A stretch of DNA of 57,126 nt, taken from assembly GCA_003228105.1 (NCBI GenBank), contig QGNN01000007.1:1-57126 (forward strand), written 5' to 3'. The translations under genes were made by a program, and so were the position numbers. Below the pieces are notes generated by a model. The model was not told the origin of the DNA. It saw only the letters and a list, made by a program, of their open reading frames with translations, and did no database searches. Within the stretch, counting starts at the first letter, position 1; every line of letters begins with the position of its first letter. Source of the DNA: Chloroflexota bacterium. GTDB lineage: Bacteria > Chloroflexota > Dehalococcoidia > Lucifugimonadales > UBA826. Below are positions 47,450 through 55,731 of the stretch, one piece after another.

Positions 47450-48724
47450 TTATAATCCGGCATCATAAATAGATTCTTCGGACAAGATATCTCCCAATTT
47501 CTCCACGAATTCCTGTTTCTCGTCTTCGCTGACTTTGCCTTTTCCCTCGATTTTCTGTTTGAACTGAGTGAATAGCCATTCATCTTTTGTTCCGTGGGGT
47601 ATATCAAAAAATTCTCTGTTAAACGAAGGAAGTTTCCCGGGGCCGTAGTAACCCTTGCCCCGAATTTCATAGCCTTCCAAGTTATCCGTTCCTTTTCCTA
47701 GAACTTCTCCTGTCTCGACAAAATGCTCCATCACAGGGGCCATACCATAGCGCTGTACCGGACAGACTAGCATGCAAACCCCGCAACCTTCGTAGGTAGC
47801 CATGACAGGTCGGCATCGATCGTACATTAATTTGTGCTTTTCAACACCCCTCCAAAAGACCTTCTCTTTAACCAAAGCTCTTCCAGGGCATCGATTGACA
47901 CAAACCTGACACATTTCACAGAACTTATGTATGCCATAATCGACTGGGTCATCGTAGGTTACTATTGCATCTGTGCTAATAATAAGAAGTCTAGATCTGT
48001 TACCAAAATGGGGTGAAAGCAGCTGCCCATTAGCACCAAGTTGTCCCAGACCCGCCTCGACAAACATCGGTATGTACGCAGCACTATTGTCGTTTGGACT
48101 ATGTACCTGCGCTCTGTAACCTAAATCTCTAATGAAATCAGCAAGATCCAGGGCTAGTGCACCCTCTTCCTCATATGTTCCAAAGTGGGCAAATTCAGCT
48201 TCCATACTTGGTATAGTTTGGGTTTGCCAATAATCCTGTTCAAGTGCCAAACATATCGCATGCTCATACTTTACCCAGGCTTTTTTGCTTTTGTAAGCAT
48301 ATTTTCTATCGAATTTTGTAAACCCTACCTCACCAAACCCAAGTTTCCTTGCTTTCTCTCTGATCTCTTCAGTCACATCCTTAGCGGGAGTGACATCTCC
48401 AGTTGGCTGTTTATTTCCTGATACATATGCCGCTTCAACAAGTGGTTTATTGACTTCATCGTGATGTTTACGGTATTCATACATCTCCCCGGTATAAACC
48501 GTCCACGTCCATTCCCTATCCGCAGCCTTCTCGATGTTCTGGCTAACAATTGGATAGTTTCGAGAGTACCAAGCTACATCATTATCCTTTTTAACTATCC
48601 CTGGTACCGTCGCCAGTTCCTCTGCCACTGGAATCTCCACGGAATCGTGATCTTGAGTCCTACCTGGTCTCTTAACGGTATGGTGAATTTCCTTTAAGGT
48701 CATTCCAAATCCCTCCAAAGACAT
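47450..48724 (-). CDS. Reductive-dehalogenase-like corrinoid/Fe-S protein without TAT signal
   Basis: 424 residues. The C-terminal region has two [4Fe-4S] motifs in the RdhA/QueG arrangement: CEMCQVCVNRCP, then C-x9-CGVCMLVCP. Upstream, EAGLGQLGANGQLLSPHFG and LLIISTDA match the cobalamin-binding reductive dehalogenase/epoxyqueuosine reductase core. There is no TAT signal peptide and no anchor-protein gene, so the enzyme should be cytoplasmic, unlike respiratory RdhA. Length exceeds QueG by its N-terminal extension (about 1-110). Reduction of a halogenated or other substrate is inferred. Followed by a small unknown protein. Confidence 0.83.
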   Translation of the reverse strand: MSLEGFGMTLKEIHHTVKRPGRTQDHDSVEIPVAEELATVPGIVKKDNDVAWYSRNYPIVSQNIEKAADREWTWTVYTGEMYEYRKHHDEVNKPLVEAAYVSGNKQPTGDVTPAKDVTEEIREKARKLGFGEVGFTKFDRKYAYKSKKAWVKYEHAICLALEQDYWQTQTIPSMEAEFAHFGTYEEEGALALDLADFIRDLGYRAQVHSPNDNSAAYIPMFVEAGLGQLGANGQLLSPHFGNRSRLLIISTDAIVTYDDPVDYGIHKFCEMCQVCVNRCPGRALVKEKVFWRGVEKHKLMYDRCRPVMATYEGCGVCMLVCPVQRYGMAPVMEHFVETGEVLGKGTDNLEGYEIRGKGYYGPGKLPSFNREFFDIPHGTKDEWLFTQFKQKIEGKGKVSEDEKQEFVEKLGDILSEESIYDAGL

Positions 48725-54068: not shown

Positions 54069-54413
54069 TTAGTCCGACCTCAAAATCTTCTTCCATTCCG
54101 AAGTTACAAATCTTTTGCCCTGGTACATTACAATGGGCCTTTTGATTAACCTAGGTTCTTTAATCATTAGATCCAACATTTCGGAAGCAGTTATATTTGA
54201 TTTTTCCAAACCTAACTTTTTGAAAGAGGGGCTTCTCCAAGAAAATAGCTCCGAAGGATTATCTCCTGATAAAACCTCCTGAAGTTCATCTAAAGAAAAT
54301 GGGGTGTTGAAAAAATCTCTTATTTCACAGTCAAATCCAGCCTGCGAAAGCTCCGCTTTCGCTTTTGTACAGCTACTTCAACGATTCCAACCGTAAAACG
54401 ACAAATGCTGCAT
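54069..54413 (-). CDS. ArsC/Spx-family thioredoxin-fold selenoprotein (in-frame UGA = Sec12)
   Basis: 114 residues if UGA 54380-54378 is read as selenocysteine. ATG 54413 is preceded by GGAGG (5-nt spacing). The N terminus is MQHLSFYGWNR-U-SSCTKAK: Sec12 stands where ArsC and Spx proteins have the catalytic cysteine, in a UxxC motif. The rest is an unbroken ArsC-type domain (FDCEIRDFFNTPFSLDELQ, ELFSWRSPSFKKLGL, KEPRLIKRPIVMYQGKRFV) of full family length, with Arg60 at the ArsC arginine position. A SECIS-like hairpin follows the UGA. It is 25 nt downstream of hom. Likely a glutaredoxin/thioredoxin-dependent reductase; substrate unknown. The alternative is a Cys-to-stop nonsense mutation. Confidence 0.8.
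54344..54380 (-). promoter_or_regulatory. SECIS-like element: UGA plus downstream hairpin
   Basis: On the minus strand the UGA is at 54380-54378. After 15 nt comes a perfect 8-bp stem, GCGAAAGC (54362-54355) pairing with GCTTTCGC (54351-54344), closing a GGA loop (54354-54352). Bacterial SECIS elements lie inside the coding region with the apical loop roughly 16-37 nt after the UGA and a G at the first or second loop position. Here the loop begins 24 nt after the UGA and starts GG. Confidence 0.75.
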
Positions 54414-54438
54414 GCAAACCTCCAACGTTACAAGCCGG

Positions 54439-55731
54439 TTATTCGACCACCCTGATCACATTACCTATCATTCTAACAACATCTAGTTCCTTTAAGCTCG
54501 ATATAGCCCTCGTTACAGAACTTTCGCTGGCTTCGTGAGTCATAATGACCAATTCAGCATTTGTAGATTGATCACCTAATCCTTTTTGGATAAAAGATGA
54601 AATGCTGATCCCGCAATCTCCTAGCACTGCAGCAATTCTAGCTAGTACTCCTGGTTGATCGTCAGCTTCAAGTCTAAAGTAATATTTGGTTATCAATGTA
54701 TCTATTGATCTAATCTCTATCCCATCCGATAACCGGACCGGGTCTAGTAAGTCAGTGCCACCAGCAATGGTTCGGGCGATGTTGACAATATCTGCCACTA
54801 CGGCACTACTGGTGGGCATAGAGCCCGCGCCCGGTCCATGAAACAATACCCTATCTAACAAATCCGTCTCTACTTCCACGGCATTCAGAACATCATCCAC
54901 CTTAGCTAACATTTGCTCCTTTGGTATCAATGCAGGATGAACTCTTCCTAATACACTAGAATCGGTTCGAGTAGCTATGGCTAACAGCTTTATCGAATAT
55001 CCTAATTCTTTAGCGTATGAAAAATCCTTATCCGTAAGGCTGGTTATCCCTTCAGTAAATATATCAGTATGTTTCACGCTAGCCCTGAACGCTAAAGTAG
55101 ACAGTATCGATAATTTATATGCCGCATCTATCCCCTCTACGTCACTGGTTGGATCTGATTCAGCATAGCCCAATTCTTGGGCCTCCTGCAGCACTTGCTG
55201 ATAATCAGCTTGTTCGTTCGCCATTCGAGTTAGAATATAATTGGTAGTCCCATTGATGATAGCTTTAATAGATTTGATGTCGTTAGCCACCAAATCACGC
55301 ATCAAGGGTGAAATAATTGGTATTCCTCCGCCCACACTTGCTTCAAAAAGTACTCTAACATTATTTTCTCTAGCCAAAGAGAATATCTCAGAGCCATGTT
55401 TTGATATCACTTCTTTGTTGGCGGTAACTACATGTTTCCCGTTTTTTACCGCTGCCAGAATCAATTCCAATGCTGGGTGTTCACCACCCATCAGTTCCAC
55501 AACAATATTTACTGATTCATCATTTATTAATTCTTCAGGATTATCGCCTAAAATATTTTGAGAAACCATGAATCCTCTTTGCATCGACGTATCACGAACT
55601 GCTACTTTCATTAGCTTTAATGGTGATCCGACGTGACTATGCAATGCGGTAGAGTTTTCAGTTATTGCCCTCGCTACCCCTGATCCAACTACTCCCATTC
55701 CAATGAGTCCAACCCCTATGGAATTTCTCAT
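54439..55731 (-). CDS. hom: Homoserine dehydrogenase
   Basis: 430 residues. NAD(P)-dependent reduction of aspartate semialdehyde to homoserine for threonine and methionine. Cofactor motif GLIGMGVVGSGVA, catalytic-domain VTANKEVISKHG and GTTNYILTRM, then AYKLSILSTLAF. A C-terminal ACT domain (about 345-430; YYFRLEADDQPGVLARIA) provides allosteric control. It ends 25 nt before the selenoprotein gene; 9 nt separate it from the PpiC-type gene upstream. Confidence 0.96.
   Translation of the reverse strand: MRNSIGVGLIGMGVVGSGVARAITENSTALHSHVGSPLKLMKVAVRDTSMQRGFMVSQNILGDNPEELINDESVNIVVELMGGEHPALELILAAVKNGKHVVTANKEVISKHGSEIFSLARENNVRVLFEASVGGGIPIISPLMRDLVANDIKSIKAIINGTTNYILTRMANEQADYQQVLQEAQELGYAESDPTSDVEGIDAAYKLSILSTLAFRASVKHTDIFTEGITSLTDKDFSYAKELGYSIKLLAIATRTDSSVLGRVHPALIPKEQMLAKVDDVLNAVEVETDLLDRVLFHGPGAGSMPTSSAVVADIVNIARTIAGGTDLLDPVRLSDGIEIRSIDTLITKYYFRLEADDQPGVLARIAAVLGDCGISISSFIQKGLGDQSTNAELVIMTHEASESSVTRAISSLKELDVVRMIGNVIRVVE

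Follow-up and report, generated by a model that had tools for sequence, protein, structure and literature searches.

The locus examined here raises the question of whether a single UGA within an otherwise intact reading frame marks a decaying gene or encodes selenocysteine (Sec), and, in the latter case, to which kind of protein the Sec residue belongs. The frame lies in contig QGNN01000007.1 of a marine, SAR202-type Chloroflexota bacterium (Lucifugimonadales; UBA826; assembly GCA_003228105.1), and the stretch analysed, hereafter the window, comprises positions 1-57,126 of the forward strand. Three features define the gene:

54069..54413, minus strand: predicted selenoprotein gene of 114 amino acids with an ArsC/Spx (thioredoxin-fold) domain and the motif U12-S-S-C15, recognized by sequence, Pfam, alignment and AlphaFold2
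54378..54380, minus strand: UGA codon 12, the sole internal stop, almost certainly read as Sec, with TGA at 128 of 139 aligned loci and a Cys codon at the other 11
54419..54423, minus strand: Shine-Dalgarno sequence GGAGG, 5 nt 5' of the ATG, seen in the sequence and kept in close relatives

In the window translation, the frame runs intact from ATG to TAA (54413-54069, minus strand), giving 114 residues that read MQHLSFYGWNRUSSCTKAKAELSQAGFDC...KKILRSD*. A preliminary description of this DNA had reported an ArsC/Spx-type frame with a GGAGG before the ATG and a lone internal TGA at codon 12, all of which the window sequence bears out; the "115-codon frame" that it gave is complete, its exact size being 114 residues plus the stop. 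The window ORF list contains no standard ORF of at least 80 codons at 54069-54413, and automatic annotation would probably pass over the gene.

A homologue is present in 61 of 98 related genomes, and 57 of these 61, including all seven congeners, carry exactly one in-frame stop, which is TGA, a pattern that recurs at identities down to about 34%. The four homologues without a stop comprise three full-length or nearly full-length copies (genomes G055, G056 and G046) and one partial match. Over 139 aligned loci, a count that includes some records reached twice through two collections, codon 12 is TGA in 128, TGC in eight and TGT in three, while TAA, TAG or any other sense codon occurs at that position in none of the 139. 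The in-frame TGA is thus not a chance event, since it recurs as a single stop in 57 of 61 homologue-bearing genomes and at 128 of 139 loci. The comparison with related genomes that had been proposed, looking for Cys or TGA at codon 12, accordingly returned 128 TGA and 11 Cys codons and no random stops.

These counts bear directly on the reading of the frame as a prematurely stopped, decaying pseudogene. In its favour one may cite the adjoining downstream gene, a short-chain dehydrogenase (SDR) that is broken in the source genome:

53719..54066, minus strand: SDR remnant directly downstream, disrupted by three deletions of about 10, 88 and 361 nt; congeners have the unbroken gene

Against decay stand the identical lone TGA in the congeners and most other relatives, the use of TGA and never TAA or TAG at codon 12, a covarying hairpin described below, and low Nei-Gojobori omega values past the UGA (0.07-0.22 among congeners), which place the downstream part under purifying selection. 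The preliminary description had argued against decay from the intact frame past the UGA; we reject the pseudogene reading, which TGA conservation and low omega leave with hardly any probability.

Selenocysteine insertion in bacteria would call for a SECIS element, and a candidate lies shortly past the UGA:

54344..54362, minus strand: SECIS-like hairpin with an 8-bp stem (GCGAAAGC/GCUUUCGC) and the loop GGA, 15 nt past the UGA, identified by covariation

Over 28 sequences, 98.2% of the cells of this hairpin pair, and five of its eight pairs show compensatory changes in which both sides are altered, as against pairing of only 32-58% in slid controls in which the partner was moved by 1-3 columns. 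The apical-loop G is kept in 98 of 102 distinct TGA sequences, of which 11, from distant members, pair poorly in the fixed register; in certain distant Chloroflexota members the stem requires a different register. Because the encoded amino-acid stretch is the same, the Cys-codon genes serve as a control for coding constraint on the hairpin, albeit one of only nine distinct sequences. In most of these the hairpin is degraded, with a mean of 3.2 of eight pairs kept versus 7.2 of eight in the TGA genes.

The own genome encodes SelA (534 bits), SelB (349 bits) and SelD (384 bits), each over its cut-off, and the SelD gene has one in-frame TGA of its own, making it a probable second selenoprotein. 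A covariance-model search of the same genome for tRNA-Sec returned ordinary tRNAs only. In all seven congeners, tRNA-Sec is complete (62-66 bits, anticodon TCA) and its gene, selC, adjoins trxA. One contig of the source assembly (C32) matches this trxA-selC locus at 94% up to its last base, and its end, ...GGGAGCGGTTGAGGCCTGGTGGTCTCTGCGGACTTC, corresponds to the initial 36 nt of selC. The break falls precisely at the anticodon, and no other contig of the assembly yielded the remaining 3' half. As selC stops where the contig ends, the gene is present and was broken by assembly. Lack of the machinery, which the preliminary description had named as grounds for abandoning its claim, can therefore be set aside: SelA, SelB and SelD are present, and so is tRNA-Sec, cut by a contig end. 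Among relatives, a genome with the TGA form (G057, 95% complete) gave no tRNA-Sec match at E 1e-7, and G046, which has the Cys form, gave none either; in G056, also of the Cys form, the best match of the search was a tRNA-Ser, and G055 has the Cys form yet retains tRNA-Sec.

The same components weigh on whether the UGA might be read as Trp or Gly through a change of genetic code rather than as Sec. Nothing beyond the in-frame TGA itself would suggest it, while normal window genes terminate under table 11, homologues carry Cys and never Trp or Gly at codon 12, and SelA, SelB and SelD are present, so that we give this reading practically no credence. UGA-12 is almost certainly read as selenocysteine, judging from the pattern of the sequences compared.

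We then turn to the kind of protein encoded. The product reaches 59.3 bits with Pfam ArsC (PF03960; gathering cut-off 24), and its AlphaFold2 model (pLDDT 90) shows a thioredoxin fold with the ArsC/Spx helical insertion. The best PDB matches of the model are Spx (E 1e-9, TM 0.83) and ArsC-family structures, over a TM range of 0.83-0.86. In the alignment, Spx Cys10 and Cys13 fall opposite U12 and C15, respectively, and Sec takes the place of ArsC Cys12, in agreement with the earlier statement that the TGA falls exactly on the catalytic Cys. Across the family, U/C12, C15, R88, R92 and P93 are invariant.

These likenesses raise the possibility of an Spx-like redox-sensing regulator that would bind the C-terminal domain of the RNA polymerase alpha subunit (alpha-CTD) and be switched through a selenenylsulfide. 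Spx structures are the closest matches in both sequence and fold (TM about 0.83), the active site occupies the position of Cys10-x-x-Cys13, and the Spx/MgsR model TIGR01617 gives 60.8 bits. This score is nevertheless below the curated cut-off of 75.05, and scores with Spx models are far lower than those models demand; the window protein further differs from Spx/MgsR in having Sec for Cys10 and a shorter C-terminus. The column of Spx Gly52, a residue on which binding to the alpha-CTD depends, is filled in the family by D/P/S/N/A/K, mostly D/P/S/N and rarely G, and the window protein has N there. A role as an Spx regulator is not supported, because the score lies under the cut-off and the Gly52 column is not kept, and we consider it improbable.

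An arsenate reductase (ArsC) with a Sec nucleophile is slightly less improbable, although still unlikely. The ArsC-family fold, the correspondence of Sec to ArsC Cys12, an invariant Arg92 and a mostly conserved Arg60 agree with it, whereas the glutaredoxin-coupled ArsC model TIGR00014 gives 49.2 bits where its cut-off demands 106, His is not conserved at position 8, and the recurrent neighbours of the selenoprotein loci include no ars genes. A second Cys is conserved, too, where E. coli ArsC has the motif CxxS. With the curated cut-offs missed, membership of both the Spx regulators and the classical ArsC enzymes was rejected.

We consider a general thiol-disulfide reductase more probable than an enzyme of arsenate reduction or a protein that binds RNA polymerase. 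Most likely, standard SelB/SECIS recoding yields a thiol/selenol-disulfide reductase of the UxxC type. By analogy with the family, catalysis would most likely proceed through a selenenylsulfide of the UxxC motif. In the proposed sequence of events, SelB carrying Sec-tRNA(Sec) would bind the hairpin just past UGA-12, and the ribosome would insert Sec at this codon rather than stop there. From its place at the N-terminal end of the first thioredoxin-fold helix, Sec12 would then attack an oxidized thiol or disulfide; Cys15 would resolve the resulting intermediate by forming a selenenylsulfide, to be reduced in turn by a partner of the thioredoxin or glutaredoxin type. We infer both the decoding of UGA in the source organism and the redox cycle, and hold with high confidence that the gene encodes a Sec-containing ArsC/Spx-fold oxidoreductase that would work through SelB/hairpin-directed Sec insertion and a Sec12/Cys15 redox cycle.

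Selenoproteins of this general kind have been listed before, as the preliminary description had noted for marine metagenome surveys. UxxS ArsC selenoproteins were reported from the Sargasso Sea ("Arsenate reductase 1", PF03960; PMC1088965, PMC2398784), and the GOS survey of Zhang and Gladyshev (2008) listed 42 sequences of a UxxC type ("Arsenate reductase 2", cd03032; PMC2398784). More recently, a 2026 review assigned the UxxC ArsC family to NF041106 (PMC13188914). The window protein shares ArsC-family membership and a Sec nucleophile with "Arsenate reductase 1" and differs from it in having UxxC instead of UxxS. With "Arsenate reductase 2" it shares an ArsC/Spx-type domain, U as the first residue of UxxC, occurrence in marine bacteria and the expectation of a bacterial SECIS; the sequences of that set are anonymous metagenomic reads, likened to ours by UxxC motif and domain type, and on these grounds the two subfamilies are probably, though not certainly, the same. 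The protein is thus confirmed as a known kind of selenoprotein (UxxC, ArsC family). The novelty first claimed, for a hom-linked UxxC ArsC form in Chloroflexota, is weakened by the UxxC entries of the GOS survey and by the restriction of the hom linkage to part of the family. Among the papers searched, none mentions both selenoprotein and SAR202.

The "ArsC family (seleno)protein" model NF041106 (ArsC_rel_Se_1) has ArsC-family membership and UxxC in common with the window protein, which scores 14.2 bits with it against a cut-off of 85. In the genome search, none of the 98 related genomes reached this cut-off, the best relative attaining at most 34 bits. Being so far under the cut-off, the window family looks like an unmodelled subfamily. 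We lean, by a modest margin of belief, toward a large subfamily of UxxC (seleno)proteins with the ArsC/Spx fold that stands apart from NF041106, in which the Sec form prevails and a few separate Sec-to-Cys changes have occurred. It would be common in SAR202-type and other Chloroflexota and extend to Syntrophaceae/Smithella and a Latescibacterium, and gene callers would truncate or omit its gene.

SAR202-type Chloroflexota are abundant ocean bacteria, almost uncultured, and a conserved and easily missed Sec redox enzyme links the supply of selenium to their redox biology. More than 100 members and a clear SECIS provide annotation with the basis for a model that calls the gene in full instead of dropping it. 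Additionally, the existence of both a Sec and a Cys form offers a direct test of the benefit of selenium in the ArsC/Spx fold.

A scan of a public genome collection yielded 163 relatives, of which 80 were kept. By closeness, SAR202/Dehalococcoidia come first, in line with the Chloroflexota host guessed earlier from the letters, followed by Syntrophaceae/Smithella and a Latescibacterium; 45 of 400 sampled Chloroflexota genomes have a family member. A tree built from 109 distinct members (100 Sec, nine Cys) shows four changes of the Sec/Cys label, but their direction and exact number are not firm, as the alignment columns are few and many forks are unresolved. One record titled Flavobacteriales (L117) holds a copy nearly identical to two SAR202 copies (L123 and L132), in the same gene neighbourhood, and is probably a mis-binned contig. 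A Dehalococcoidaceae copy (L127) and another of the same class (L163, genome G459) nest within the Syntrophaceae clade, a placement due to either gene transfer or mis-binning.

Directly upstream of the gene lies a homoserine dehydrogenase:

54439..55731, minus strand: hom, homoserine dehydrogenase with an ACT domain, Pfam 209.6 bits

In the genus, the order in one direction is ssb, rpsR, a SurA-like gene, hom, the selenoprotein gene and the SDR, where ssb and rpsR were named by eye from their sequences and the SurA-like gene, hom and SDR by Pfam. The linkage with hom noted at the outset holds for the source window and part of the SAR202-type Chloroflexota and is not general, hom being the immediate same-strand upstream neighbour at 16 of 80 loci. 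Other lineages place the selenoprotein gene between mutS and mutL or beside prs, and a general functional link with hom was discarded on this account. The mutS-selenoprotein-mutL arrangement characterizes one Chloroflexota group (L117, L123, L132, L147 and L154, with mutS assigned by cluster). As no single partner is conserved, the neighbours say little on function. At two junctions of the SDR deletions, short overlaps of 15 and 6 nt are seen, and the deletions represent either true decay or assembly joins. Elsewhere in the window, a protein encoded at 47450-48724 (minus strand) has weak matches to 4Fe-4S domains and, from its sequence, looks reductive-dehalogenase-like.
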